A model generated the notes under the pieces. It was given only the letters and a program-made list of their open reading frames with translations, ran no database searches and was not told the DNA's origin. From Olavius algarvensis associated proteobacterium Delta 3 (lineage in GTDB: Bacteria; Desulfobacterota; Desulfobacteria; Desulfobacterales; CAFBRK01), in assembly GCA_903231505.1 (NCBI GenBank), contig CAFBRK010000226.1, positions 1 through 64,000 on the forward strand: a stretch of DNA of 64,000 nt, read 5' to 3'. Shown in pieces: positions 5,277 to 59,502 of the stretch; within the stretch, counting starts at the first letter, position 1, and every line of letters begins with the position of its first letter. The position numbers and the translations under genes are program-made.

Positions 5277-8200
5277 TTAATAGCTGTCCGGCGTATACCG
5301 ATTGGAACGATCATACCAGTACTCAAGCAGCTCGCGCCAGTTTTCTATGCTGTTTTGCATAGATCCAGATGTACAAAAATCCAAGTGGCCGTACAATGGA
5401 TCGCTCAAATATTGTGGGCGAGCAGGGGAAGACATATTTCCGGTCCAAGTTTCAGTGTCACCGGCGGTGTACCACCACTGGTAGGCATAGGCAGGTCCTC
5501 CTGTCCAGATAAGGAAATCGCCGTCAGGGAAGAAAAACGCCAGTCCATTAACACCATCTGAAAGCGGCAATTCTGTCCCCTGCCTTCCGTTGAAATAGGC
5601 TCGGGTCACCTTTCCAGAAGAGCTCAGCACACAGGTCTCAACGGTCCCGGTCAGATCAGCGGCTGCCATCCTGACATTTGCTGGTATGGAACCAGCAGAT
5701 AATGCGTTGGAAAATGAATACAGATCGAACAATGGTGTCTGAAGCCAGTTCGACGGGGCTGACAAACCATCCGGATTTCCCATATTCCTTATCAATTGAT
5801 CGTCGAAGTATTCAATGATCGGCGGACCGTTGTATAACCTGGGGCCCCCGTTGGCCGAATATCCGCGAACGCTCTTTGCGAAATTCCAAGTGTTCGGATT
5901 CCGGCGAATCGCAGAAGCCAGTTGATCGAATTTTGCCTTTACGTCTGCTACCGCAACCAATGCATAGGCACTCAGGGCGTTGTCCTGAATGCCTGGATCC
6001 GAATAGGCCTCTGCCACGATGGTCCTGGCAAACAGCTCCGGCGTCAGCTCTGCGACGTCACCCAGGGAGTCCAGAATAACGGAGTAATCCCATCCCTCGG
6101 ATAATGCCTTGGCCGGTGACGCAACCATATAGTCGGCCCCGAATTTTCCGGACTCCGGCCGATATTGATACGCCGTCTCCACGGTGCCCATAAAACCGGT
6201 ATCCAGACCGAGTAGATCGACCGACTCGGTTTCGCCAAGTCCGTCGGTGACTTCGCCCACATACAGTCGGTCATCGCCGCTGGTCTCATCCCAGAGGATG
6301 TATTTTGCCGGGCTGGAGGTGTAATTTTTTCCCATATTGAATATCGATGGCGAGGCCACTGCCTCACCGTGGTTGGCCAGAATCAGGGCATAATTCGGCG
6401 CTTCGTATTCCTTTTGGGAAAACCGGATAAAATCCTTGAGGGTTTGCGGATGGCCCATATTGACCTCGCCAAGGTAAGGATCGATCACCTCGGAAACAAT
6501 CTCGCCACCGGGTGACGGGTCCGGCTGGACCAGATAGCGGACCGAATTGTCGCCCCCCCTCCCGTCGAATTGAACCACCAACGCCAGTTTATGGATTACA
6601 TCCGGGTCCGTTTCCATCGCCTTGAATAACCCGTATTCCATCTCCTGAAGGTCGTTCAACATGTGGGTTTCGTTTTCGTTGTCCCCGTTGAGGTACACCA
6701 TAAAGGTCCACTCCCGGTCGGGGATGTTCACCGGTTCCCACTCGATGGTGGCTTCAAACAGCGCCCACTCGTATCCGCGGTAGGCATCGCTGCCATAGAT
6801 GGCCAGCACATTGCGCCCTTTCTCCAGGTACGGGAGGATATCGACGGTCACCAGGCCGTTATGCGCCGGGCTGTCCCAGTTGGAGACCACGAACTTCCCA
6901 TTGACATAGAAATCGTAGACGTCGTCCACGGCCAGCGTCACCGCCGCGCTGGTCAGGGCGGAAGGCGCCACCGGCAGCTCGAAGGACTTGCGGAACCAGA
7001 CATCCGCCGGCCCGTTGTAGCCGGTCATCTCCCCGCCGCCCGGAAAATCCCACATGTACTGGGCGTTGGTGCCGGGGATGCGGAACCAGTGATTTGCCGG
7101 TTTCCGGTTCGGATAGGGTGCTGCGGCCTGGCGCCAATCACTATCATCAAATTCCGGCGCCGACCATCCCTCGTATTCCTGATCCGTGGATTTCCAGGAG
7201 TTGTCACTGTAAATTTTCAGGCCATTGACGCCCAGGGCCGTGTCGAAGGCCGCCTCGAGAAGCCGGCGACCGTCCGCATTGAGTTTCTTGGGGGTATATT
7301 TATCAAAGAAAAGCCCGATCCTGCGGGCCGGAGCCGGGAAGCCGCCCGGCATTTCCGTGTCGACATCGTAATAAAATACGGCCGCTTTATCCAAGTCCCC
7401 GACCAGGGTGGCCACCACTTCGGCCGTGTCCGTGGGCATAGCCCATCCGAACCGGGTCGGACAGCGGGTCACCGGCGTATCTTTTTCCAAATTGGCGGCC
7501 ATGGGGTGATCCGGCTGGACCACGTGGATCTCGCGCTGTCGATATTCATACCCGAAGTCGATGCCGGCCGCCGCACCGGTCATTCCCAGGTCATCGAAGA
7601 GATACGGCTCCCAGCAGATAATCGGAACCTGTACCTGGGCAAATTTATCCCCGACCCGCTTGGAGTAAACAGTTTCCGAAAGCAGGATCAGGTCCTTTCC
7701 CTCTGCATCGGCGGCCTCGACCTCATCGTCATCTTTGACCATCACGGAAAAGCCTCGGCTCTCGAGGCGGCTTTTCACCAGTGCATCGCTGAAATTGAGC
7801 CGGGTTTTTCCAACCACCATCAACGCCTTCCGCTTCCAGGGCTCGTCCGGTACCGCCACCACAAAGTAATTGCTCCAGGCCTTATGCCCGCCGTTGAAAC
7901 GGTTTCCACCGAGTTCGGCCACCTCGTCGCTGTCGAAACTCCGGCTGAACACCACCATGGGGGAGGCGCGATAATCCCCGGTGCGAACGGTCAGATCCGT
8001 GAGCTTCCATTCATCAAGCCATTGGGGCGGGTCGGCGCTGCCCCGTTTATCGTAGGCCACAAACAGGGTCGCCGGCTTGTACACATAAAGGCTCAGATGA
8101 TTCTCGGCAGTGTTCCGCTTATCGTTATTGGCCGTCCGCACCAGGACGCCGCCGTCCAGCTCATGGCTCAGGGTCTTGATACGATATCTGCGGTCAATGT

Positions 8201-8849
8201 AGGCCCTTGCTCCCCGTTTTGCCTCGGAAACCCGGTAGCGCCGGTTCGATGACACCTGTAAAATTTCCACGAGTTGGCTGCCGGGATTGAGAAATTTGAC
8301 AACGACGAAAAAGTTGCTTCTCGCCCCGTTATCGCCACCGTAGTGATTTCCCCTCAAGGGAATGGGGTCGCCGCCATCCACCGTTTTTCGAAAGACGACC
8401 ATTGGAGACGCCGGCCAATCGCTGGTAATGATGGATTCGTCCTTCATTTCTTCCCACCCGTCATCTCCAAGCCATTCCGGCGCCGAGCCCTGTTGATGAA
8501 AGGCCCGTTGATCAAAACAGATGTACACGAACGCGTCCTGGTCGGCGTTGAGCGTAAAGAGGCGCTCTTTGCTGAACCATTTGTCGTTGTTGGCGGTCCT
8601 CACCAGGACCCCGCCGGCTAGTCCCGGCGTGATCTGGCGGATCTGATAGCGACGATCGATGTAGGGTCTGGCGCCGATTTCAGCCCAGGCTGTTCTGTAA
8701 TGTCGGTGTGTGGCCACGTCGCTGACGTGCACCAGACCGGTGGCTTTTTGGCATCCCGAAGCGGTATTGGGCAAAAAGGATAACGCACCGGTGATTCCGA
8801 CACACAGCATCAGGATGACCAGGCGATGCAGCCGTTGGTTGCGTTTCAT
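5277..8849 (-). CDS. Secreted clostripain-like (C11) protein lacking the catalytic cysteine
   Basis: 1190 residues, started at ATG 8849 after GGAAGGAG. A Sec signal peptide covers about residues 1-32; ASGC at its end is a possible but atypical lipobox. Residues of about 40-340 hold two copies of a 140-residue module (shared motifs: YIDRRYxI, GGVLVRTANNDK, ASPMVVF, SNFFVVV/SNYFVVA). About 345-560 resembles a ThuA-like fold, then a jelly-roll-like carbohydrate-type module (residues of about 570-740), then a C11 peptidase region from REWTFMVYLNGDNE to near the end. C11 enzymes use a His-Cys dyad; His827 is present (ILANHG) but the usual DACLM motif reads DTGFM, with Gly885 where Cys should be (codon GGT at 6197-6195). 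It is therefore probably an inactive, binding-type member. It lies alone, with its own terminator. Confidence 0.8.
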   Translation of the reverse strand: MKRNQRLHRLVILMLCVGITGALSFLPNTASGCQKATGLVHVSDVATHRHYRTAWAEIGARPYIDRRYQIRQITPGLAGGVLVRTANNDKWFSKERLFTLNADQDAFVYICFDQRAFHQQGSAPEWLGDDGWEEMKDESIITSDWPASPMVVFRKTVDGGDPIPLRGNHYGGDNGARSNFFVVVKFLNPGSQLVEILQVSSNRRYRVSEAKRGARAYIDRRYRIKTLSHELDGGVLVRTANNDKRNTAENHLSLYVYKPATLFVAYDKRGSADPPQWLDEWKLTDLTVRTGDYRASPMVVFSRSFDSDEVAELGGNRFNGGHKAWSNYFVVAVPDEPWKRKALMVVGKTRLNFSDALVKSRLESRGFSVMVKDDDEVEAADAEGKDLILLSETVYSKRVGDKFAQVQVPIICWEPYLFDDLGMTGAAAGIDFGYEYRQREIHVVQPDHPMAANLEKDTPVTRCPTRFGWAMPTDTAEVVATLVGDLDKAAVFYYDVDTEMPGGFPAPARRIGLFFDKYTPKKLNADGRRLLEAAFDTALGVNGLKIYSDNSWKSTDQEYEGWSAPEFDDSDWRQAAAPYPNRKPANHWFRIPGTNAQYMWDFPGGGEMTGYNGPADVWFRKSFELPVAPSALTSAAVTLAVDDVYDFYVNGKFVVSNWDSPAHNGLVTVDILPYLEKGRNVLAIYGSDAYRGYEWALFEATIEWEPVNIPDREWTFMVYLNGDNENETHMLNDLQEMEYGLFKAMETDPDVIHKLALVVQFDGRGGDNSVRYLVQPDPSPGGEIVSEVIDPYLGEVNMGHPQTLKDFIRFSQKEYEAPNYALILANHGEAVASPSIFNMGKNYTSSPAKYILWDETSGDDRLYVGEVTDGLGETESVDLLGLDTGFMGTVETAYQYRPESGKFGADYMVASPAKALSEGWDYSVILDSLGDVAELTPELFARTIVAEAYSDPGIQDNALSAYALVAVADVKAKFDQLASAIRRNPNTWNFAKSVRGYSANGGPRLYNGPPIIEYFDDQLIRNMGNPDGLSAPSNWLQTPLFDLYSFSNALSAGSIPANVRMAAADLTGTVETCVLSSSGKVTRAYFNGRQGTELPLSDGVNGLAFFFPDGDFLIWTGGPAYAYQWWYTAGDTETWTGNMSSPARPQYLSDPLYGHLDFCTSGSMQNSIENWRELLEYWYDRSNRYTPDSY

Positions 8850-13116: not shown

Positions 13117-16100
13117 ATGGAAGAATTTGAACTCGTCCAATTTTTGCATTCAGCTGGAAAGGATCCGGCTCGATTGGTCTTTGAGGACGAGCTCACAAAA
13201 ATTTATAATAGACGGTTTTTATTCCAGTATCTGGAGTCAAAGGTACCATGGGAACAATTCAACGGCAATTCTATCTCGCTTCTCATGATGGACCTGGACC
13301 ATTTTAAGTCCGTAAACGATACGTTCGGGCACCCGGTCGGGGACCAGGCCCTGATCTGGCTCGCCGACCACCTGAAAGAGCTGGTTCACGATATTGGTTT
13401 GCCGATCCGGTACGCCGGCGACGAGTTTATGGTGCTACTGACGAACACCGGCAAAACATCCGCAACAGAATGTGCCCAACAACTTATGGAACGGATCCAC
13501 GAGGATCGCTTCCAGCCACCGGGCATCGAAAAGGATATCCACCTGACCATCAGTGTGGGGGTCGCCACAGCTCCGACGGACGCCGATAACTGGAAAGATT
13601 TTATCCAGAAGGCCGACATGGCACTGTATCTTGCCAAGAAGCGTGGACGGGACCAGATGGCGGATGCGGCGGAAATTTTCAATGATACGATTTCCGACAA
13701 GGTGGCCCTTTATCGGCTCGATGGGGTAAAAATTGCCGGTCGGGTCGCTCAAATCGCCCGAATCAATGCGGCTCTGAAAGAGTTTCAGCAGAAAAAAGGC
13801 CAATTCGTGCTGCTCGAAGGTGCCGCCGGTATGGGCAAAACAGAATTTCTAAACACCCTCCGAACCGGTACAACCGGAGGCCGCTTCATATCGGTCAAGA
13901 CCATGGGCATGCCCCAGGAAATGTACCGTCCCTACTATCTGGCAGAAAGTATGATCGTCAACCTCCTGATGCAGCAGGAAGACAGCGGGGTCGATATCCT
14001 GGAACAAATAGGTTCAAAGGAGCGGGCTTTCCTGGCTCAGATTGTCCCACGTCTCGGTAGTGAGGAGGACCCTTCGCCGGCCCTCGATGCTCCGATCCTG
14101 CGCGAGGCTATCTTTGGCGCCGTTATCAAATTTTTTTCTCTGGCCGTGGGTGAACAGCCACTGTTTCTCTTCATCGATGACCTGCATTATGCAGACGAGG
14201 CGACCCTTTTGCTGATCCGGCAACTCATGAAGCGGGGCGAAATCAGGTTTTTTGTGATCGGAACGACTATTGAAGCGGGCGAACGCAGTGCAGGCATGCT
14301 GCCGGGTCCGCTGGATCGTTTCGTCACCCACCACGGGGAAGAACTCGGACTGGTCCATACGACGCTGACCTCACTGAAGGCCGATGACATCACCAAACAC
14401 ATTAAGGGTTTGTTTCCGAAAATTGAGCTGCCGGACGGGTTTATTGACAACCTGGTGGCCATCACCCAGGGTAACCCGCTATTTCTTGCCGAAATCCTGC
14501 GAAAACTGGTGCTCGATCACCAGATCACCCTGGTCGGTCAACAGTGGACCTTGCATCCATTTGAAGACGGGTATCTGCCAAAGTCCATGGAAGAAATCGT
14601 TACCGAAAAAATAGCCGACTTTGGCGAAGATAACCGGCAGATTTTAGATCAGGTGTCGGTCATGGGAGAGAATGTTTCCCTGAGCAGGCTGGTCGGCGGA
14701 TCCGACCAAATGGAAGCCACGGTGCTCCAATTTATCGATGAGGCGGCAGCCCAGGGCTTGCTGAAATCAGAATTTGATCTCAACGATGACAACGTCCGGT
14801 TTCTCGGCAAACGCATTCTGGAGATCACCTACAACGCCATCGAACCGGAACGTAAAGAACAACTGCACGAGCAGATCGGATCATACCAGGAGAGCCTGTA
14901 CCAAAAACTCCAGGCCTCCGCCGCATCTCTGGCCTATCATTTCAAGCGGTCGACCGACAAACAAAAGGCCGAAACATACGAACATATCCAGGCGGAAACC
15001 AGCCAGCGCACCTTCAATCCCGAAGAGGCGATATCCTACAGCGGCGCCATCCCGGCAGAAGCATTTCTCGACGAAGAACCCCTCACGAGGGAAGGGGTAT
15101 CTGAAGTACCCAATTTCATCCGCAAATTCATGGTCGCCCTCCGAAACATCCGGCTTTACCCACCCGGCAGCAAATCGGTTATCGGCGCCAATCAGGATTT
15201 GAAGCAGATCATCGATCACATTTTAAAGGACAACAGATCTTTCAGCCTGGCCCAGCAGGAGGACCAATTACTCATCAACGGAGAGGAGGGCACGACCGAC
15301 GACTTCAAGCCGGCTGCCGAGGCGTTTATCCAGATCCTCAAGCGTTACGATCTAAAGCAGGTGGCGTTTCGCCAAGGGCTGACCGCCAAGGAAATCGGCT
15401 TTTTCACGGATAAACTGGCCCACAGCGAACAGCGGGCGTTTCATGAAAAATTCTGGAGACAGTTCTCCGCTGATCACGAATTAAACAACCTTCTGTTAAA
15501 GCAGGTCCGTTACAAGTCCAAGACGTCCGACGCGCCCCAGACGACGGAAACGGGAACATACACGGGAATTCCGACCGGGCCGCCAGGCCAGGCCCTGGAT
15601 GATGCGCTACTCTCAAAAATCCCGGATATCCTGAGGGCGTTTTTGAGCGCCATCCGGACAACCAAGCTCTATCCGTTAACCAGCCGGGCAGCCACTCGCG
15701 CCCTATCCCATTTACTGGAAAACCTGCAGGGGTTTCTCTCGGTCGAGAGAGTATTGACGCTGTCCGAGGTGGACAGGTCTCTACTGATCAATGGGAAGAA
15801 AATCGACACATCGGCATTCGTCTTTCAGGCAGAGGAGTTTTTCAATTTTCTCGACGTCTCCGGGATCAGAAGTCTGACGTTCCTGCAAAACCTGTCACAG
15901 GAAGAGATCACCTCTTTTGTCAATGCCGTGGTCAATCAACAGGCGACCGACAACGGTACGGATTACTGGAGACACAGAATACAGCAGCTGGGATTGAGCC
16001 GGGTTCTTGTTGATCAACACCTTTACGACATTAAAAACCTTCAAAAAGGCGAGGCATCCGAGGACGGGCTGGATATTGAACCACAACGCGCGGGTGCCGG

Positions 16101-17346
16101 GATCGAATCGGCCGAACGGATTTTTTCCGAGGACGACATCCGCACTATCATCGACGGCATGCCCGAATCCGTGATCGATCATTTTCTCAAGGGCCAAGGG
16201 ACGGCAGTGCACGCGCTCATGACGGATCTGTTCGCCGATTACGCCAAGTGTCGAGTGTCGACCCGAAAAGATGTCATCGGCATCTGCAACGAAACGATGG
16301 ATGCACTGGCCCCGGCCGTTCAGCACGATTATGCCCTGATTTTAACAGATCCTCTGATCCGGAGATTTCTCGAGGAAGAGGATTCCGAACTCATTATTCA
16401 GGCTGCCAGCCTCGTGTACCGTGTGGCCGAAGGGCTCATTCAGTTCAGGGCATATCCCTATGCCGCACGGCTGCTGACAGCGGTCCGCCAACAGATGGGC
16501 TGGCTTCAGAAAACGGGCCATGCATCTCTGGAAAAACTGCTCGTCAAAATCGATGGATTGCTAAACCCATCCACCCAGAAGCTTCTTGCCGATGATCTCA
16601 AGTCAAGAGAGTCGGTGCGGCAGCGAAATGCCGCTCAACTGGTCGCCGGTCTCGGGAGATCCGCCGTTCCCATGCTCATCGAGCTTTTGCGATCAACCGA
16701 GGATTATCGAATCCGATATATATGCATGAACCTCCTGGATAAACTGGGGGAGAAGGCTGTGGAGCAGCTAAAGCGGGCCCTGGCGCTGGAGATTACACCC
16801 CGGGAGCGGGTTCGGATTCTCGAGGTCATTGACCTTCTGACGATGGATTTAACGGCTGAACTGGGTCGTGCCATCGGGGATTCCAACCGTGAAGTCCGGT
16901 TGGCCGCCCTCCGGATTGCCGAGCGTCTCACGGATCCAAGTATCCCGCAGATACTGTGCCACCTGGCAAAGAAAGCCGACATTGAGATTGCACTGGACGC
17001 GTTCAGTTGTCTGGGCCGCATGAAGTCGCCGGAGGCCGTCGAGGAACTGGTCGATATACTCAATTCTTCGAAAGAGGAGAGCCGGTCTGCCGCCTGTTGT
17101 TTAGCCCTCGGCAACATCGCCTCCAAGGAATGTGTCGAACCCCTGGCGAGAATACTCGATAGGGAGGGTTCCATATTGTCCCGCAAGCGCTATACATCGG
17201 AAGTCAGGGTGGCCGCAGCAGCAGCCCTTGCACGTATCGAACGTCCGGAGGCTCTAAAGATCCTGACCCTGCACATGACCCATCGAGATCCCCGGGTCCA
17301 GCAGATTGCTGCCGCTGCGGTTAAAGCAAAACCGTCATTCCAATAA
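13117..17346 (+). CDS. GGDEF-AAA ATPase-HEAT signalling protein (copy 1)
   Basis: 1409 residues; the ATG follows AGGGGA. Residues 1-190 form a diguanylate-cyclase domain with LTKIYNRRF, DLDHFKSVND and the active-site variant AGDEF (100-104). The inhibitory RxxD site is absent (HDIG in that place), so synthesis of c-di-GMP is plausible without product feedback. An STAND/MalT-like ATPase follows: Walker A GAAGMGKT at about 235 and Walker B LFLFIDDLH at about 349. From about 650 to 1000 there are two copies of a module centred on LYPPGSKS and LYPLTSRA, each followed by LLINGxxxxT. The C-terminus (about 1165-1409) is a HEAT-like repeat array. The protein is cytoplasmic, with no membrane segment. 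The architecture suggests a nucleotide-driven switch that couples partner binding on HEAT repeats to c-di-GMP output; this is inference. It is followed by a paralogue 892 bases downstream. Confidence 0.85.
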   Translation: MEEFELVQFLHSAGKDPARLVFEDELTKIYNRRFLFQYLESKVPWEQFNGNSISLLMMDLDHFKSVNDTFGHPVGDQALIWLADHLKELVHDIGLPIRYAGDEFMVLLTNTGKTSATECAQQLMERIHEDRFQPPGIEKDIHLTISVGVATAPTDADNWKDFIQKADMALYLAKKRGRDQMADAAEIFNDTISDKVALYRLDGVKIAGRVAQIARINAALKEFQQKKGQFVLLEGAAGMGKTEFLNTLRTGTTGGRFISVKTMGMPQEMYRPYYLAESMIVNLLMQQEDSGVDILEQIGSKERAFLAQIVPRLGSEEDPSPALDAPILREAIFGAVIKFFSLAVGEQPLFLFIDDLHYADEATLLLIRQLMKRGEIRFFVIGTTIEAGERSAGMLPGPLDRFVTHHGEELGLVHTTLTSLKADDITKHIKGLFPKIELPDGFIDNLVAITQGNPLFLAEILRKLVLDHQITLVGQQWTLHPFEDGYLPKSMEEIVTEKIADFGEDNRQILDQVSVMGENVSLSRLVGGSDQMEATVLQFIDEAAAQGLLKSEFDLNDDNVRFLGKRILEITYNAIEPERKEQLHEQIGSYQESLYQKLQASAASLAYHFKRSTDKQKAETYEHIQAETSQRTFNPEEAISYSGAIPAEAFLDEEPLTREGVSEVPNFIRKFMVALRNIRLYPPGSKSVIGANQDLKQIIDHILKDNRSFSLAQQEDQLLINGEEGTTDDFKPAAEAFIQILKRYDLKQVAFRQGLTAKEIGFFTDKLAHSEQRAFHEKFWRQFSADHELNNLLLKQVRYKSKTSDAPQTTETGTYTGIPTGPPGQALDDALLSKIPDILRAFLSAIRTTKLYPLTSRAATRALSHLLENLQGFLSVERVLTLSEVDRSLLINGKKIDTSAFVFQAEEFFNFLDVSGIRSLTFLQNLSQEEITSFVNAVVNQQATDNGTDYWRHRIQQLGLSRVLVDQHLYDIKNLQKGEASEDGLDIEPQRAGAGIESAERIFSEDDIRTIIDGMPESVIDHFLKGQGTAVHALMTDLFADYAKCRVSTRKDVIGICNETMDALAPAVQHDYALILTDPLIRRFLEEEDSELIIQAASLVYRVAEGLIQFRAYPYAARLLTAVRQQMGWLQKTGHASLEKLLVKIDGLLNPSTQKLLADDLKSRESVRQRNAAQLVAGLGRSAVPMLIELLRSTEDYRIRYICMNLLDKLGEKAVEQLKRALALEITPRERVRILEVIDLLTMDLTAELGRAIGDSNREVRLAALRIAERLTDPSIPQILCHLAKKADIEIALDAFSCLGRMKSPEAVEELVDILNSSKEESRSAACCLALGNIASKECVEPLARILDREGSILSRKRYTSEVRVAAAAALARIERPEALKILTLHMTHRDPRVQQIAAAAVKAKPSFQ

Positions 17347-17640
17347 ACATGTGGGGCACTGCCGGTATGGGATGAACTGCGGATCAGCGTTTCAACCCCA
17401 TTGACGGCAACCACCCCACCGACACCCGGCCACCATGCGCCTGGCATAGACCCTATTTCTCGTATTCGGTTAATAAACCAACCCCCGGACAACCGCCAGC
17501 CACCCGAAAACAACCCTTTTGTCGATCCGGAGGGCAATGTCCATACACCTTTCCCAGGGGACTAGGTCATGTCGATACCCCAATGGCGCCGGTCAGTGAA
17601 TTCCGCAGCAGTGAAATGGATTGGTTCATAACCATAGCCC

Positions 17641-17730
17641 GAACATTGCATGAAATCTTTTCAGCAAATGTCTTAGAAGAAACAATATCGGTGCATTAAC
17701 GTGAATACTGACGCATCGAGCTGCGACGCC
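17641..17730 (+). repeat. 90-bp dispersed element, copy A
   Basis: Aligned without large gaps to 22511-22600, with roughly 80-85 percent identity by eye. The core AGAAACAATATCGGTG and TTAACGTGAAT are shared. Translated from the ATG at 17650 it reads MKSFQQMS then a TAG stop, followed in frame by KKQYRCINVNTDA; copy B reads the same frame open (MTSFRQMSLEKQYRCLNVNPDA). It may be a decayed small gene or a conserved RNA element duplicated together with the paralogues. Confidence 0.7.
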
Positions 17731-17783
17731 ATGTGTCATGTTGAAAAACGGATGAACGGCCTGAAAAGATTTCACCCTGCGGG

Positions 17784-17881
17784 CCAAACGGAGACCTCCA
17801 TGGCCTGCGTTATTCGATATTCGCGGTAGTCAGACTACAGCTTCATCTCGAAGTGCCTTGCCCATGAAGGTCTCCATTTGG
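17784..17881. repeat. Inverted-repeat element with a central hairpin
   Basis: A 20-bp arm starting CCAAACGGAGACC at 17784-17803 pairs with 17862-17881 (two mismatches). Between them lies a perfect inner hairpin GTAGTC-A-GACTAC, itself flanked by TTCGA and TCGAA. The nested symmetry looks like a miniature mobile element or a structured RNA. There is no coding sequence inside, and I found no second copy in this window. Confidence 0.55.
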
Positions 17882-18238
17882 TGCAATGTCCGGGCTAGTA
17901 CGTAGCGCTCATCAGTTTTTCGTATACGCATCATGAAAATACGAAAAGAATACTAGCACCTTGGGCAAACTCCTTGCATGTGGATACCCCTCAGACAAAA
18001 CGCGCGTCGGCCTTACGGCATATAGTGGATCGTCCGATGATGCCACAGCACGACACAAAATACGATAGGTGCCCGATGCCATCCCGGTCGAGAGGATCGA
18101 CTTGACACAAGTTATCTGATTTATTATAATTTTTTATTAATCTGAAGCGATGCAGCCGATGAGGCAAAACGGCGGGTGTGATCTTCGGCAAAACCGTCAC
18201 TCGGATGCGTCGTAACCTATTATGTGAGGGACACGCCC

Positions 18239-21200
18239 ATGGAAAATCAGGATCTCGTCCAATTTCTGGAATCTGTCGGAAAAGATCCCTCCCGCCTGGT
18301 TTTTGAAGATGAACTGACCGGCATCTTCAACCGGCGGTTTCTTCTTCGCTATCTGAGTACAAAAATTCCATGGGATCAGTTCGACAATCGACAACTGTCC
18401 CTTATCATGCTGGATTTGGATCATTTCAAGTCCATCAATGACACCTATGGGCATCAGGTCGGCGACCAGGCATTGGTGTGGCTATCGACTCATCTGAAGG
18501 CTTCTGTCGGTGAGGACGGCCTGCCCATTCGATATGCCGGTGACGAATTCATGCTGCTTCTGGAACGGAGCGGGAAATCGTCCGCCGTGGCCGTGGGTCA
18601 GGGGTTGATTGATAAAGTTCGCGCCATGCCTTTCCCCATCCCGGAGGCAGATACCTCTGTGAAACTCACGGTCAGCTTGGGGGTGGCCACCGCGCCGGTT
18701 GATGCCACGGACTGGAAAGGATTTGTCCGACAGGCGGACATGGCTCTATACCTGGCAAAGAAGCGTGGTCGAAATCAGCTGGCCGATGCCGCTGAAGTCA
18801 TTCAGGAAGAGGTGTCCGAAAAGGCTGCCGTCCATCAACTAGACTCGATTAATATCGTCGGTCGCAAGACACAGCTCTCCAAAATTAAGGCAGCCGTAAA
18901 GGCCTTTCGCCAGCAGAAGAGTCAGTTTCTGCTGATCGACGGCTCAGCCGGAATGGGGAAAACCGAATTTCTGACATCCGTTGCAAAAAGTCTGAGCCGC
19001 AGCAAGGCAGCTCAGGTCAAGACATATGGTAATCCACAGGAAATGTTCCGCCCCTATTATCTCATGGAGACCGTCGCCGTTGGCTTGATGAACCAGAGAG
19101 AAGACAAGGGGTGGGGCATTCTCGAGCAGCTGAGTTCGGAAGAACAGGGATTTCTCTCTCAGATCCTGCCGGGACTTGGCCTTGATGCAACCCCCCCGGA
19201 GGGCATCGATGAGAGTGCGCTGCGCAAAGGTGTTTTTGGGGCCTTTGTGGTGTTCCTAAACAGGGCGCTGGGGAATTTACCCCTGTTTTTGTTTGTCGAC
19301 GACATGCATTATGGAGACGAAGCGACCTTTCAACTCTTGCGTCGTTTGATATTGCGCGACGAGTTGAAATTATTTGTCATCGGTACAACCTCCGAGGGAA
19401 GCGAATCCGGCGCCGATGAAACCCCTGGGCCATTGGAACGGTTTGTCGCGAACTACGGGAAGGAACTGGAGATAACACGGTTTCCGCTGACACCGCTGAC
19501 GGCAGAAGATACCCTTTTGCACATTCAGCGATTATTTCCGAATATCCAGCTTCCCTCGGAATTTGCGAACAATATCGTCAAAACCAGCCAGGGGAATCCG
19601 TTGTTTTTAGCCGAAATCCTGAGAAAGCTGGTGCTCGACCACCAGATTACGCTGGTGGGGCAGCAATGGACCTTACACCCGATTGAAGAGGGTTATCTTC
19701 CGGGATCCATGGAAGAAATCGTCACCGAAAAGATTGCGGCGCTCGATGAGGAAAGCAGACAGCTCCTGGACCAGGTATCGGCATTGGGAGAAAATGTCTC
19801 CCTGAGCGTTTTAATCGGCAGTTCCGACAAGATGGAGGCCAAGGTTCTTGAGTTTATCGACCAGGCAGCGGCCCAGGGCTTGCTGAAATCCGATTTTGCT
19901 CTCAATGATGAAAATATCCGGTTTCTGGGAAAGCGGATTCTAAACATTACCTACAATGCCATCGAACCGGAGCGAAAGGAGCAACTCCACGAGCAGATCG
20001 GGTCCTATCAAGAGGGTCTCTACGAAAAGCTTCAGGCATCTGCGGCATCCCTGGCATACCATTTCAAGCGATCCAACGATACCAAGAAGGCGGAGAACTA
20101 TGAGCGCGTTCAGGCAGAGTCCGACCGCCGCCACTTTAATGCCCAGGAAGCTGCCGAATACACCGGAGATATGCCTTCCGATGAGCCTCCGGAAGAAGAG
20201 CCGCTGTCACGGGAAGGGTTGGTCCATGTGCCGGGTTTGATCCGTACATTTACCGTGGCGCTTCGGAATATCAAGCTGTATCCTCCAGGCAGCAAATCGG
20301 TTGTCAAGGTAAACGCGGATTTAAAAAAAGCGTTGGATCAGATTCTCATGGACAACGAGTGCCTCAGCCTGTCCCAGAGTAAAAACGCCCTTGTCATTAA
20401 CGGCCAGCGGATGGACATTACTGATTTTAAGCTGGTGGCGGATTCATTTATTGAAATTCTGGAACGGTTTGATCTCAAAGGCATCGCGTTTCATAAGGGC
20501 GTCATGGAAGAAGAGCTGGCCGCCTTGACCGACGAACTTGGGCGTAGTGAAAAGAAAGTCTTCGAGGAAGACCATTGGGGGACCTTTTCGAGAGAGCATG
20601 CGCTGAAGTGCATCGATCTCAAGCAGATGCGTTATGCCATGCAAAAATCCGCGCCGGGAGTCGGCAAGGAGGGAGCACCAGGTGGTCCGGCCCCGCGCAT
20701 GGACGCGGATGCGTTGGGACTGGTCCCGGAAATTGTTCGAGCACTTCTGAGTGCGGCAAGAACCATAAAACTCTATCCGATCACCAGCAACGCCTCAGAA
20801 AACGCCGTCGATCTTCTCGCCAATGCGTTGCGGAATTTTTTAAGTCGCTATTCCTTGCTGACCCTGTCCCACGTGGGCGGCTCGCTGCTGATCAATGGCG
20901 AAAAAATCGACACCTCAGAGTACAAGGCGCTCGCCGAAGGGTTACTGAAATATCTCGATGCCATCGGCTTGAGCAGCCTCACGTTCCTGGACAGTCATAC
21001 CAAGGACGAACTCAAAACACTGATCGGCACCCTGGGGGACCTCCCCGCAACCGGGACGGACCCGAAGTTCTGGAAGGGACTGGCAAGGGAGAAAAAACTG
21101 GCCGGCATTCTTTTCGATCAACATATGTTTGAAGTCAAAATCAAGCATACGGCCGGGGGCGGAGGCAGGAGCGCCGGCGGACAAACGGCGACCGCGAGAC

Positions 21201-22483
21201 AGCAGGCTCCCAGCGCCGAACTGACCGTCCAGGAAGGGGAGCCGGAACCATCCGAGGTGTCCATCGATGCCGTGATTGAAAACATGCCGGAGGTCGTCTC
21301 GGATCTTTTCCTCAGGGATAACATCGCCAGTGTCAGCGCCCTGACGAAAAGAGTGTTCCGTAAGTATCCGAGCTGTGATGCACCCATCCGTGAAAAGATT
21401 CTTGAGGCCTGTCGCAAAACCATTGATCAACTGACGCCGGCCTACCAGCAGGATTTCGCTCGAATCATCTCGGATCATCTGCTACGGGTGTTTTTGGAAG
21501 AAAAAGATTCCAACCTGATCGTACAAACCGCGGCGTTTATGCATCGTCTGGCAGCCCCACTGATTCAGTTTAGCGATTATCCCCACGCTGCCCGGCTGCT
21601 TATGGCGCTCAACAAACGGGGGAAGGATCTTAGAGAAGCAGATAGTGCCATGGCGCAATCCCTCGCCAGAAACATTGGCGCCCTGGTGAATCCGACAATT
21701 CAGAAATTGCTGGTCGAAGATTTTTTGTCAGGTGACACCAAAAGACAGCGGAGTGCCGCTCAACTGATTGCCAGTTTTGGGCCGGCCGCAGTCCCAATGC
21801 TCATCGATGTTATAAAAACAGTTGACGATTACCGGACCCGTCACGTGAGCATGATGCTACTGGAAAAAAGCGCTCCCCAGGCGGGAGAGCGCCTGAAGAG
21901 AGTCCTTATGCAGGAGAGCGCCGTGGAAGAAAAGATCCGGATACTTGAAGTGATCGAAATCCTGACGCGGGAAATCGAGGGGGAGATCGGCCAACTGCTC
22001 AGTGATGAAAATGTCCAGGTCCGGCAGGCTGCTCTGAAAGTATTGGAACGCATCAATGATCCGAAGATGGCTAACATGCTACTCCACGCAGCCAAAGGCC
22101 CAAAAATGGAGCTGGCCGTGGAGGCGATTTCCTGTATCGGCAAATTAAAGCCACCCGGAATCGTCGATGAATTGACCGATGTGCTTAACGATACCAGGGA
22201 GGAACCCCGAATGAAGGCATGCTGCCTTGCACTCGGCGAAATCGCCAGCAAGGAGGGCATCGCTCCCTTAACGAAGGTGCTCAACTATAAGGGATTCTTC
22301 TTTCGCCGGAAACAGTTTTCGGATGACGTTCGTGCGGCCGCTGCGTTTGCCCTTGGCAAAATTAACCACCCGGACGCGCGTGAGGCTCTCAAACCCCACC
22401 TCGACCACCCCGATCCGAGGATCCGACAGATCGCCGCAGCAAAAACCGGCGCCATGCCGTCACCACCTCCGAAAAAAGAGTAG
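18239..22483 (+). CDS. GGDEF-AAA ATPase-HEAT signalling protein (copy 2)
   Basis: 1414 residues. The ATG at 18239 was chosen over the GTG at 18224 because it is preceded by GAGGGA and aligns with the start of copy 1 (MENQDLVQFL versus MEEFELVQFL). It has the same domain order as copy 1: GGDEF domain with LTGIFNRRF and AGDEF, no RxxD inhibitory site, Walker A GSAGMGKT, Walker B LFLFVDDMH, two LYP modules (LYPPGSKS, LYPITSNA) each with LLINGEKIDT- or LVINGQRMDI-like sequence, and C-terminal HEAT-like repeats. A glycine-rich linker (GGGGRSAGG) that copy 1 lacks precedes the HEAT part. The two are clearly a tandem gene duplication that has since diverged. A hairpin CCGGGC-TGCAAT-GCCCGG about 100 bases past the stop could end transcription, though no T-run follows. 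Confidence 0.85.
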   Translation: MENQDLVQFLESVGKDPSRLVFEDELTGIFNRRFLLRYLSTKIPWDQFDNRQLSLIMLDLDHFKSINDTYGHQVGDQALVWLSTHLKASVGEDGLPIRYAGDEFMLLLERSGKSSAVAVGQGLIDKVRAMPFPIPEADTSVKLTVSLGVATAPVDATDWKGFVRQADMALYLAKKRGRNQLADAAEVIQEEVSEKAAVHQLDSINIVGRKTQLSKIKAAVKAFRQQKSQFLLIDGSAGMGKTEFLTSVAKSLSRSKAAQVKTYGNPQEMFRPYYLMETVAVGLMNQREDKGWGILEQLSSEEQGFLSQILPGLGLDATPPEGIDESALRKGVFGAFVVFLNRALGNLPLFLFVDDMHYGDEATFQLLRRLILRDELKLFVIGTTSEGSESGADETPGPLERFVANYGKELEITRFPLTPLTAEDTLLHIQRLFPNIQLPSEFANNIVKTSQGNPLFLAEILRKLVLDHQITLVGQQWTLHPIEEGYLPGSMEEIVTEKIAALDEESRQLLDQVSALGENVSLSVLIGSSDKMEAKVLEFIDQAAAQGLLKSDFALNDENIRFLGKRILNITYNAIEPERKEQLHEQIGSYQEGLYEKLQASAASLAYHFKRSNDTKKAENYERVQAESDRRHFNAQEAAEYTGDMPSDEPPEEEPLSREGLVHVPGLIRTFTVALRNIKLYPPGSKSVVKVNADLKKALDQILMDNECLSLSQSKNALVINGQRMDITDFKLVADSFIEILERFDLKGIAFHKGVMEEELAALTDELGRSEKKVFEEDHWGTFSREHALKCIDLKQMRYAMQKSAPGVGKEGAPGGPAPRMDADALGLVPEIVRALLSAARTIKLYPITSNASENAVDLLANALRNFLSRYSLLTLSHVGGSLLINGEKIDTSEYKALAEGLLKYLDAIGLSSLTFLDSHTKDELKTLIGTLGDLPATGTDPKFWKGLAREKKLAGILFDQHMFEVKIKHTAGGGGRSAGGQTATARQQAPSAELTVQEGEPEPSEVSIDAVIENMPEVVSDLFLRDNIASVSALTKRVFRKYPSCDAPIREKILEACRKTIDQLTPAYQQDFARIISDHLLRVFLEEKDSNLIVQTAAFMHRLAAPLIQFSDYPHAARLLMALNKRGKDLREADSAMAQSLARNIGALVNPTIQKLLVEDFLSGDTKRQRSAAQLIASFGPAAVPMLIDVIKTVDDYRTRHVSMMLLEKSAPQAGERLKRVLMQESAVEEKIRILEVIEILTREIEGEIGQLLSDENVQVRQAALKVLERINDPKMANMLLHAAKGPKMELAVEAISCIGKLKPPGIVDELTDVLNDTREEPRMKACCLALGEIASKEGIAPLTKVLNYKGFFFRRKQFSDDVRAAAAFALGKINHPDAREALKPHLDHPDPRIRQIAAAKTGAMPSPPPKKE

Positions 22484-22814: not shown

Positions 22815-25284
22815 TCAGCCGGATTCAGTGGAGTGTGTAAACTCAAGGGTTGACTTATCCATCTTCATTGCGGGCTCCCCCTCGGTATCGGGAACCGTTG
22901 TCACCGCCGTATCCGGAAGTGGTTCCATGTCACCGCCCATGACGGTGGCAACCCGTTCGAACATTGCTTCCAGTAAATCCTTAACCGGATATCGAGGCAA
23001 TTGGGATAAAAATGTCTCGTTGAGGTGCTGCAGCCGCTCCTGCCGTAATTTCATCGCTGCAAGTTCCTGGCAAAAGGCAATAAATCGCTCGGATTGGGGC
23101 GACTTCCCCCTGTGTGACTTTTCAATGGCCTGCATTACGGCGCGAGAGGAGCATCCCCGAAATTTACGACGTGCCTCTTCATTTCGGATCAGGGATTGAT
23201 TCGTCACGGCATCATCCACGCGAGAACTCTGGGTAGATATGGCTTCGACCAGAAACGATCGCAGCTGCTCAAGAATCGGTTCCGGAGCCTCTGCGATGAC
23301 CGTGGTCAAGAATGGGGCATTGCGGGCGGTTTTCTTATTAAATTCATCTCTGGCCATCAGCCAGAATCGATCATTGCAAGACCAATAGATTTGATCCACC
23401 GGCTTGTTCTGAGTTTTCGACTGCTTCAAGGAATAGATGATACCTCCAAAAAGTTCGGCCGTCCGTTGAAACAGCCGTTCACCGGTGACGACGGTAAAGA
23501 CAATACCTATCAGTGCATACCAGTCCTGCATGAAAAAAATTTGGCCCAGATCCGGAAACCACTCACCGAGCAGTTTGTTTGGTATAAAATGGGACGGTGT
23601 GGCGTAGGTCGGCGTACCCCCGAGCTGAGGCTGGGGATAAGGGGTTTCAGGCGACGTTGGACAGATGATGGCTGTTTCGAGATCGATCAGCCCTACGGAA
23701 AAATCCTGGGCAGATGATAAAAACAATGGATAGCGGGACGGATCCCCGGATACAAATAGATTGTCCGGTTTCAAATCACGGATCGCCACACGTCGCTCTC
23801 CCAGCCATTGGAGTAAATCCAGCAGGTTGCTCACCAGGGAATTCCGAACATGCTGGTTCCGCTTGAAGGAGACATCACGGGCTTTTTCGAGCGCCAGTTT
23901 CCGGTAGGTCGTGACCAGCTCCGGTTGATCCTTTAAAATGGAACCGAGAAGTTCGCTGGCAGCCTGGCGGAAGGATCCGGATCCCCACCGGATTGGAGCC
24001 GACGGTTCACATAGACGATCGTGAAACCATTCTCTGAGTTGGGCATCGCCCGGGGCATCCTCCGGACCAAATGATCGCTGCATCTGCCGAATACCCTTTA
24101 CAAATCGGGTATACAGCTTTTGAAGATCAAAACAGATCCAGACATTGTCCGTTCCGTATCGAGACTCAAAACCATCACAGTCTGCCGTCATCCCGGCATC
24201 TTCGGATAGGCGTTCCCGTACGTCCTGTTTTCCGATGCCGGCCATCACATGGCCGAGGAAGTAGTCGCGGGAAAGATCCATGAAAAACACAAACGTGCCC
24301 TCGATCTGCAAACCGCGTTGCAATGCCGGAGTGCCTTCCAGGAGGTCGATATAGTCGGTTTCAGCCTGCTCCGGTGTCCGGGAGGCTGCGCCTCCAATCC
24401 GATGGACCTTGCTCAAGATGACCGACAGGTTGGGTATGAGACACTTGCGCGGTGAAAGGGCCCTTGACCACGCCGGCCTCATATTGAATGCGGCGAATGT
24501 AATCCGAATAGTCACGGATCGGTACCGGTGGTATTTTAACGACCATGTGCGTGTCGTAGATGACATAAAAGCATTGGCTTCTGCTGGCGGAAGTATCGCC
24601 GATGGGGCTGATCGTCATGCGCCGCGATTTCCATTTGTCGCGGATCTCCACACTGAGTTGATAGAGATTGCCGGGCCCGTGGTGTTCCTTTTCAAGGGAT
24701 TCTATTTTTCCTGACGCATCGGCGGGAGCCCCCACCTGCATCCGGTACAGTTCCAGAAAGAACCGTACGACATCCTCCTGTTTGATGAGACGCGGTGTCA
24801 GAGGTTCCGTGCGGGTTTTTTTGCTTTTAGTGGTTGTCTTTCGGCGGATTTTCGGTGTGGCCTCGCGTCGTAGCCGTTTTCTCACGAAAAGACCGGCCGC
24901 CGGCACCAGCATGAATAGAACGAGAATGACAAGGAGCGGAATGCCGGCAATGCGTTTTGAAACAAGGGAAAACAGGTCACCACCGGCATCGCCCGTCGAC
25001 TGCCGTGCAAGTGCCGCGTAATAGGATAGCCGACGTCGGATATCCCCCTTGGCAAAGGAAAAGGGAGGTACATGGGCCGATAGATCCTTTGTGTTCACCA
25101 CGAGGATCTTTTCACCGGATTTGTAAAAGGTGACACCCAAAACCTCCCAGGCTTCTTTTGCTTCTATCCCCCGACCATCCGGGAACAGCAAAAGATGCCG
25201 ACGCATCAAAGAATAGCAGCCAATTGCGGATAGACCAACGATGAAGGTCGTAATCAGTCCTATGACAAGCAGTCTTTTTCGCAT
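22815..25284 (-). pseudogene. Membrane-anchored Ser/Thr protein-kinase-like gene split by a frameshift
   Basis: Two overlapping open frames form one protein. The first starts at ATG 25284 and runs to 24361; it has two membrane segments (about residues 7-25 and 117-135), a basic linker and the start of a kinase-like fold (CFYVIYDTHMVVKIPP, with the beta-3 lysine). The second, open from 24566 to 22815, continues with LIPNLSVILSKV, the catalytic loop AIRDLKPDNLFV, a metal-binding DLE in place of DFG (GLIDLETA), GTPTYATP and a helical C-lobe. Both frames are open across 24361-24566; skipping one base near 24445-24455 joins them into about 822 residues (2470 bases is 3n+1). The RD dyad and DLKPDN suggest the intact protein would phosphorylate. 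It may be a true pseudogene, a sequencing error, or recoding; no strong slippery site is seen. Confidence 0.75.
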
Positions 25285-57707: not shown

Positions 57708-59468
57708 TCAATGCGATGAGGGTAGCAGTTCCGATATCTCGAATTTTGAGAGCGGCATACTGAACAACGCCCCCTGATACAGGTCGCATCCCTCGTCCCG
57801 CAGGAACTGAAGTTGTTCTTCTGTCTCCACCCCTTCTGCAACCGTGCGCAAGCCGAAATTTTTGCCGAGATAGATCACCGACGAGGCAAGGGCCCGGTTG
57901 TTGGCATCTTTAGACATATCCAATAGAAAGGACCGATCGATTTTCAGCTCGTCCAGGGGAAGCCGTTTCAGGTAATTCAGAGACGAGAACCCCGTGCCGA
58001 AATCGTCAAGGGCCAGTTTCAGGCCGATGTCTTTCAGACGCTGCATCATACCGATTTTTTCCTCGACATGGTGCATCAAGATGTCTTCCTTTAATTCGAG
58101 TGATACAAGCTGCGGATCCAGACCATAATTTTCCACAATGCGTCTGATCAGGATCGGTAGTTCCCGGTTCTGAAACTGGATCGCCGACAGGTTCACCGAC
58201 AAACCGATGGCGATACGCCCTTCCCGGCGCCACTCCGCCAGTTGCAGACAGGCAGCGTTGAGCACCCACTCACCGATGGGGATGATGAGTCCGGTTTCTT
58301 CCGCCACGGGGATGAATTCGCTCGGCGGAATCAGGCGACGATCGGCACTTTCCCAGCGAAGCAACGCCTCAACACTTTCGATGGCACCGGTTAGCACATT
58401 CACCCTGGGTTGGTAGAACAAGAAAAGCTCGTTTCTCTCCAGGGCTTTTCGGAGTCCGGCTTCCAGATCGAGGCGCTCCCTGGACTGTTGATCGATTTGA
58501 CGGGAAGAAAACTGAAATGAGTCGCCGCCCATATTTTTGATATAATCTCTGGCGCTGGAAGCGAGCCGGAGTAGTCCAAAATTGTCCGTTTCCTCGATGG
58601 GATAGGTGGCAATCCCGATACTGGCCGTCAGATATATCTCGGTATTATCGATTACCAGGGGCTCCCTAAAGGAATCCAGCAGTCGTCTCGCCACCAGCGC
58701 AGCAATGCCCTCGCTGGGGATTTGGTGAAGAAGCAGGGAGAAAACACCGCCCTCCAGGCTAAACAGGTGGACATCGGAATCTTCCTTAACGTCAAAATGT
58801 GCCAGCGCGTCCATGCTTCTGATCACGTTTTTTATGAGCTGGGCGACTTTGCGCAGAACTTCATCACCGGCAAGCAACCCGACCGCGTTGCTGATCGTTT
58901 CAAACTGGTCCAGCTCGATGCTCAGCAGCGCCAGCCGGTGGTCATCACGCTTGGCCCATTTCAGGGCCCACTCCAGGTGCTCCATAAACATGTGCCGGTT
59001 GGGCAGGTTGGTCTGGCGGTCGTAGAAGGCCAACTGATCTAAATACGCCTTGGCCGCAAGGGTGTTTCGCACTCGCAGTCGAAGCTCACTCGAATCCACC
59101 GGCTTGGCCAGAAAATCCGTCGCCCCAAGGTCCAGGCAGCGGAGCTTGTCCTCTGCTTCCGCCGAGGATGTCAGAATGATGATGGGAAGATGCTTGAGTT
59201 TCGGCTGTAACCGTATGGCATCCAGAATGTCAAAGCCCGAGACATCGGGCATCATCAGATCGAGCAACAAAACATCGGGACGGGATTCTTCGATCGCCGC
59301 CATCGCTTTGCCGGAGTCCTCGATCAATATAAAGTTTCGATACCCGTCTTCCTCCAGAAAAGCCCTTACCATCTCCATGGTAATCGGCTCATCATCCACC
59401 ATCATAATCGTTGCGTCTAAAAGCTCCCCCAAGTCATCCGGTAATGCAGAGCTGCCGTCAGAATTCAT
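57708..59468 (-). CDS. Receiver-GGDEF-EAL response regulator
   Basis: 586 residues. The receiver domain has phosphoacceptor Asp in [13 protein letters not shown]. The GGDEF domain is degenerate ([10 protein letters not shown] where GGDEF belongs), so no c-di-GMP synthesis is expected. The EAL domain retains [30 protein letters not shown] and KIDRSFL and the late EGVETEEQL; the third metal motif reads ELKED instead of ELTES. Likely a c-di-GMP phosphodiesterase switched by phosphorylation, possibly by the adjacent hybrid kinase 34 bases upstream. Removal of c-di-GMP could set whether the surface protein is retained or released, as for LapA-type adhesins; this is inference. Confidence 0.88.
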
Positions 59469-59502
59469 CTTGTTATCCTGATGTATTGTTTACAGTTGAA
59501 TG

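Follow-up and report, generated by a model that had tools for sequence, protein, structure and literature searches.

Tandem GGDEF–STAND–LYP–LYP–HEAT proteins in Olavius algarvensis associated proteobacterium Delta 3: putative stimulus-gated diguanylate cyclases with an undescribed module

The window analysed here, a 64,000-nucleotide stretch of contig CAFBRK010000226.1 from Olavius algarvensis associated proteobacterium Delta 3, encodes two tandem paralogues on the same strand, proteins 1 and 2, both with the domain order GGDEF, STAND nucleoside triphosphatase (NTPase), LYP, LYP and HEAT repeats. We lean towards reading each of them as a diguanylate cyclase that a stimulus switches on, laid out on the NLR/STAND plan with an N-terminal effector, an NTPase switch and a C-terminal sensor. 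A previous sequence-only reading had described two proteins of about 1.4 kilo-residues; both open reading frames (ORFs) proved intact, at 1409 and 1419 amino acids (aa), and pairwise alignment showed 51% identity across the whole length. Matches in proteins 1 and 2, respectively, to Pfam GGDEF (E 3e-41 and 1e-39), AAA_16 (1e-17 and 5e-17) and HEAT_2 (5e-17 and 2e-23) all lay above the curated cut-offs, which bears out the HEAT array noted in that reading. The architecture is constant across the 43 full-length members of the family, which come from Desulfobacterota-type genomes, and GGDEF, AAA_16 and HEAT_2 were found in all 26 members scanned with Pfam. The residue counts below refer to the alignment of these 43 proteins.

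Cyclase domain and STAND switch

Only about 20 residues precede the GGDEF domain at the N-terminus, which leaves no sensor or stalk ahead of it, so it must be controlled from the C-terminal side. The active-site signature is RYAGDEF in both window proteins, not GGDEF; the RxxD inhibitory site is absent, and in its place protein 1 has HDIG and protein 2 has GEDG. The earlier description of a diguanylate cyclase without an inhibitory site thus holds for the domain and the missing site, and required amendment only for the motif. Ala opens the motif in 38/43 relatives and Gly in 5/43; a complete AGDEF is seen in 33 and a complete GGDEF in 4. The metal-binding Asp66 and base-binding Asn72 (protein 2 numbering) are present in 43/43, the base-selecting Asp81 in 40/43 and Glu108 in 39/43; D66, N72 and D81 are all retained by both window proteins. 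Domains with AG(D/E)EF have been estimated at about 1.6% of GGDEF domains, and one AGDEF enzyme, VCA0965, produces cyclic di-GMP (c-di-GMP) in vitro (PMC3974145). VCA0965 shares the AGDEF active site with the window proteins but differs from them in possessing an RxxD site and in its partner domains (PMC3974145). In Hypr GGDEF enzymes, which make cyclic GMP-AMP (cGAMP), Ser or Thr replaces the base-selecting Asp (PMC6456294). The Asp found at this position in both window proteins and most relatives marks them as the canonical type, predicted to make c-di-GMP, and sets them apart from Hypr enzymes. Two relatives, L132 and the Desulfatibacillum protein L135, carry a Hypr-like Thr at the base-selecting position, but further active-site residues are altered in them; the signature of L135 reads RYGADEF.

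In the NTPase, the Walker A Lys, the Walker B DD and the G and N of the GNP motif are present in 43/43 proteins, and the P of the GNP motif in 42/43. An hhGRE-like motif lies ahead of the P-loop; its GR is found in 43/43, and the next E is mostly K. Residues 195–662 of protein 2 were modelled with a predicted local distance difference test (pLDDT) score of 85.8 and a predicted template modelling (pTM) score of 0.85. Structural alignment with PDB chains placed PH0952 first (Z 20.3 over 332 residues), followed by Apaf-1 (20.1), MalT (19.9), an Apaf-1 mutant (19.0), NRC2 (18.7), NRC1 (18.4) and Apaf-1 again (15.7). These best seven matches are STAND proteins, and ORC/Cdc6-type AAA+ proteins reached at most 14.9. 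The alignment with the STAND structures covered residues 13–446 of 468, including the winged-helix part. Foldseek's own ranking mixed the STAND and ORC/Cdc6-type groups, and a sequence search for solved relatives of the segment returned none at E 0.01; the assignment is based on the second structural alignment described above, the GNP motif and the winged-helix part. As judged from the predicted structure, the ATPase that had been called STAND-like is a STAND NTPase, not merely STAND-like.

We propose that, in the unstimulated state, the LYP/HEAT part would keep the ADP-bound NTPase closed and the protein monomeric. Binding of a ligand or partner protein to the LYP/HEAT part would lead to exchange of ADP for ATP and STAND oligomerisation, which would pair the N-terminal GGDEF domains as the dimers needed for c-di-GMP synthesis. 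With the RxxD site missing, product inhibition would place no limit on output, which ATP hydrolysis would end. We know of no established activation mechanism for most diguanylate cyclases; a GGDEF domain coupled to an NLR-type ATPase would offer a concrete and testable way in which a stimulus could trigger c-di-GMP production free of feedback.

Several observations weigh against this model. The clade of L128, L133, L134 and L136 lacks the catalytic Glu of the motif (AGDNF, AGDKF, AGDNF and AGDSF, respectively), despite intact STAND motifs and remaining features, and L132, L135 and L138 carry other active-site changes. Cyclase activity is therefore not essential in every member, and some relatives may be inactive as cyclases. 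No conserved Arg was present at the usual sensor-1 position (FVIGTTSE or FICGTAxD). The sensor-1 arginine is common among STAND NTPases but not strictly required; its absence means that the details of switching may differ from those of Apaf-1. Furthermore, comparison of the family loci revealed no neighbour gene conserved across the family that would name the stimulus, synteny being clade-specific.

The persistence of the architecture in a clade without catalytic residues would also fit a different role, in which the GGDEF domain serves chiefly as a receptor for c-di-GMP or GTP or for docking, and the protein is a STAND scaffold whose output is protein interaction via LYP and HEAT. The non-canonical AGDEF motif and the HEAT arrays, which are typical interaction surfaces, point in the same direction. 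However, a complete AGDEF or GGDEF motif is kept in 37/43 proteins, the metal- and base-binding residues are near-invariant, and AGDEF is active in VCA0965 (PMC3974145). The RxxD site, often used by GGDEF receptors, is missing. We therefore regard a receptor or scaffold role as unlikely.

The LYP module and its partner domains

The LYP module comprises roughly 150 residues with an LYP motif and occurs twice between the NTPase and the HEAT array. The two copies within each protein are about 27% identical and have invariant positions in common, which confirms the duplication already reported. In the source genome, LYP modules were found only in these two proteins, four modules in total. The module had been suspected to be undescribed, and a match to a known domain, together with a common domain combination, was the refuting outcome set beforehand; searches of Pfam and NCBIfam gave no match over the curated cut-offs and nothing credible in the LYP region, and PDB sequences gave no meaningful match. 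The PDB sequence matches that did appear covered about 30–40 residues, the best of them in designed or engineered proteins (Octarellin and a cytochrome c555 trimer), and were discounted.

In a model of the double LYP (pLDDT 83.5), two long helices and a beta hairpin are followed in each copy by a helix, a strand, a pair of helices and a further strand; the predicted domain is compact and alpha/beta. Foldseek returned no significant match for this model, the best E being 0.086. Weak matches to phytochrome/GAF folds (E 0.086–0.1, TM-score about 0.1) were discounted, and matches to VIA spanned little more than the helical hairpin in the second copy. Structure prediction, proposed earlier as a check, matched the NTPase to STAND proteins and gave no significant fold match covering an LYP module.

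The domain profile, the other proposed check, revealed a wide distribution. Built from 8 modules, it matched 88/297 sampled genomes of the phylum, and built from 61 modules, 120/297; a search of plasmids with LYP gave no match. The module, undescribed as had been suspected, is not special to the two window proteins. LYP occurs mainly in LYP-HEAT proteins. Among 43 LYP proteins outside the two-LYP family, HEAT_2 was present in 28, HD_5 in 12, GGDEF with AAA_16 in 4, PilZ with cNMP_binding in 3 and histidine kinase domains in 2, proportions that are not a census, since the loci were picked from the stronger matches of the 8-module profile. Three LYP-HEAT proteins (L078, L083 and L097) end in cyclic-nucleotide-binding and PilZ domains, and in the histidine kinases LYP is at the N-terminus.

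All 12 LYP-HD genes examined (L082, L084, L086, L087, L088, L089, L091, L093, L095, L096, L098 and L100) adjoin a same-strand LYP partner gene, forming a recurrent two-gene unit, and direct scanning of the partners at L084, L086, L093 and L098 showed HEAT repeats. The nine LYP-HD sequences that were read contain HD-x-GK together with a motif of the HHxxxxxxGYP type, in which another residue takes the place of the usual HHE glutamate; these proteins thus resemble HD-GYP phosphodiesterases in sequence. Profile comparison of the two-LYP family modules with the HD-type modules gave 99.3% probability (E 2.4e-20), and we therefore consider them the same module. The LYP-HEAT/LYP-HD-GYP gene pairs had no name in the databases searched. 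They share with the window proteins a homologous LYP, HEAT repeats and c-di-GMP chemistry, but consist of separate proteins with one LYP each and a phosphodiesterase-type output.

The lack of a family match, the HD-GYP genes beside LYP partners and the PilZ-bearing LYP-HEAT proteins indicate, at the level of sequence, that LYP is an undescribed domain tied to c-di-GMP metabolism. LYP may serve as a regulatory module on the synthesis side, in the window proteins, and on the degradation side, in the LYP-HEAT and LYP-HD-GYP pairs. We tentatively extend this to a broader proposal, held with less confidence than the cyclase model itself: LYP would be a regulatory domain dedicated to c-di-GMP circuits on both sides across Desulfobacterota, and the window proteins a new class of NLR-like c-di-GMP synthases switched on by STAND oligomerisation. 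LYP occurs throughout the phylum in proteins for the synthesis, the breakdown or, probably, the binding of c-di-GMP, which points to an unstudied control of this signal. Naming the domain would annotate at least one protein in about 40% of the Desulfobacterota genomes sampled, and would join uncharacterised HEAT, HD-GYP, PilZ and kinase proteins in one signalling theme.

The nature of the stimulus admits a narrower version of the cyclase model, in which the STAND part sets c-di-GMP output by energy or nutrient state in the manner of MalT, and LYP binds a small metabolite instead of a protein. In its favour, MalT ranks among the three closest structures, the model of LYP is compact and alpha/beta, and the N-terminus of histidine kinases, where LYP also occurs, is where sensor domains belong. 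In contrast, no pocket, cofactor or ligand was identified for LYP, and no solved fold matches it. This version is a possibility that we judge to be on the unlikely side.

Family history and comparison with known systems

Two-LYP GGDEF-STAND proteins were found in nine further genomes among the 297 sampled, in G188 as a C-terminal fragment only. A scan of named genomes with one peptide pattern, which gives a lower bound, detected at least 41 loci, one of which (L142) is a different LYP protein; nearly all are in uncultured Desulfobacterota-type metagenome-assembled genomes, and Desulfatibacillum alkenivorans DSM 16219 (L135) is a cultured member. We found no paper describing this protein type.

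In a tree of 61 LYP modules, in which many deeper branches are weak, the two-LYP family forms one clade (support 98), within which module 2 (95) and module 1 (94) form separate clades. Therefore, the module was probably doubled once, before the family spread. Nearest to this clade are single-LYP GGDEF-AAA_16-LYP-HEAT proteins (83). Tandem gene pairs also occur at L111, L113, L114, L122 and L123, where the first and second copies fall into separate clades. The window pair groups with the L102 protein in a clade apart (100), which means that the tandem arrangement originated two or more times, or a single time followed by extensive loss. The tree places the L102 protein (genome G001) with gene 2 (Shimodaira–Hasegawa-like approximate likelihood ratio test 90), and a sister relationship of the two window copies is not rejected (approximately unbiased test, p 0.17).

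The combination had been called unusual, and in full it was indeed seen in only nine further genomes among the 297 sampled; with LYP also unmatched, the refuting outcome set beforehand did not occur. As a class, however, cyclase-STAND fusions are ordinary. The source genome encodes five class III cyclase-AAA_16 proteins (on contigs C267, C133, C15, C106 and C184; L144–L148), four of them with TPR matches, as well as a protein kinase-AAA_16 protein and a receiver-AAA_16-TPR-LuxR protein, and effector-STAND fusions are therefore ordinary as a kind. Like the window proteins, class III adenylate/guanylate cyclase-AAA_16-TPR proteins have a nucleotide cyclase at the N-terminus, which is followed by an AAA_16-type STAND NTPase and, as a rule, by helical repeats at the C-terminus; unlike them, they have a class III rather than a GGDEF domain, TPR instead of HEAT, no LYP and often an N-terminal zinc ribbon. 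The non-family STAND relatives that we read, from the phylum sample and a rhizobial plasmid, are of this class III kind. Two broad plasmid matches were read and set aside, one a class III cyclase-AAA_16 protein and the other an AAA_16 protein with a DNA-binding-type N-terminus; neither carries GGDEF. Kinase-AAA_16-GAF-GGDEF proteins are known in other phyla. The unusual part is the GGDEF domain, which occupies the cyclase position of a known cyclase-STAND architecture in place of a class III cyclase.

PH0952, MalT, Apaf-1, NLR and Avs proteins resemble the window proteins in the NTPase/helical/winged-helix core (Z about 18–20) and in the effector-NTPase-repeat order. The window proteins differ from these known switches in their c-di-GMP synthase-type effector, their LYP-LYP-HEAT sensor and the missing sensor-1 Arg. 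Avs and NLR proteins have a tripartite plan of effector, STAND NTPase and repeat sensor (PMC12931631). This likeness to Avs, together with weak PADLOC matches to HEAT-ARM_XIII and Avs2 and the presence of Avs3 in the Foldseek list, would fit an antiphage role, in which LYP/HEAT would recognise a phage protein and c-di-GMP would be an alarm signal. However, the PADLOC scores are marginal and reflect generic parts of HEAT and the NTPase, the surroundings of the genes showed no defence island, and local synteny is kept within clades. The C-terminal part is mostly not hypervariable: mean pairwise identity is 44% for HEAT and 39–43% for LYP, compared with 47–55% for GGDEF and the NTPase, although the helical stretch between LYP2 and HEAT falls to 30%. 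An antiphage function is, in our judgement, very improbable.

Layout and surroundings of the genes

The features of the locus are listed in Table 1. The gene 2 ORF opens at a GTG at 18224, from which its 1419 aa (18224–22483) are counted; a GAGG Shine-Dalgarno sequence at 18226 and the match to the start of protein 1 make the ATG at 18239 the most likely true start.

Table 1. Positions of the two genes, their domains and the elements between them
Feature	Position	Strand	Remark
Gene 1, GGDEF-STAND-LYP-LYP-HEAT protein	13117–17346	+	intact ORF, 1409 aa
Gene 1 GGDEF domain (aa 23–180), RYAGDEF motif	13183–13656	+	Pfam E 3e-41
Gene 1 AGDEF motif, HDIG just upstream at the RxxD position	13414–13428	+	
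Gene 1 STAND NTPase core, Walker A GAAGMGKT, Walker B FLFIDD	13732–14244	+	AAA_16 match
Gene 1 helical/winged-helix STAND part with GNP motif	14245–15036	+	homology to modelled gene 2 segment
Gene 1 LYP module 1 (aa 655–803)	15079–15525	+	
Gene 1 LYP module 2 (aa 827–974)	15595–16038	+	
Gene 1 HEAT-repeat array (about aa 1155–1405)	16579–17331	+	HEAT_2, 4 stretches
MITE-like repeat between genes, 263 bp, 22-bp terminal inverted repeats	17635–17897	.	
Sigma-70-type promoter match, TTGACA-17-TATAAT, 12/12	18102–18130	+	about 110 bp upstream of gene 2 start
Gene 2, GGDEF-STAND-LYP-LYP-HEAT protein	18239–22483	+	1414 aa from ATG 18239
Gene 2 GGDEF domain (aa 28–185, counted from GTG), AGDEF at 18536–18550	18305–18778	+	
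Gene 2 STAND NTPase core, Walker A GSAGMGKT, Walker B FLFVDD	18854–19375	+	
Gene 2 helical/winged-helix STAND part with GNP motif	19424–20158	+	
Gene 2 LYP module 1	20201–20647	+	
Gene 2 LYP module 2	20699–21142	+	
Gene 2 HEAT-repeat array	21704–22453	+	

The genes are spaced by about 880 bp. This gap, which contains a repeat resembling a miniature inverted-repeat transposable element (MITE), and the perfect match to a sigma-70-type promoter suggest that genes 1 and 2 are probably separate transcription units. The terminal inverted repeats of the MITE-like element start and end in TA and enclose internal hairpins, and about 40 full or partial copies, mostly 75–94% identical, are present in the genome on many contigs; the element is not part of the function of the two proteins. 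No Rfam element was found between 9000 and 30000.

Downstream, a weak protein-kinase-like gene overlaps a 307-aa ORF without a Pfam match (22815–24566 and 24361–25284, minus strand); the two are possibly one frameshifted gene. The kinase-like gene and its neighbours have no counterpart beside the relatives' genes. Elsewhere in the window, a receiver-GGDEF-EAL protein adjoins a large hybrid histidine kinase with an Hpt domain (57708–62442), and a 1190-aa protein with a clostripain-family (Peptidase_C11) domain is encoded at 5277–8849.

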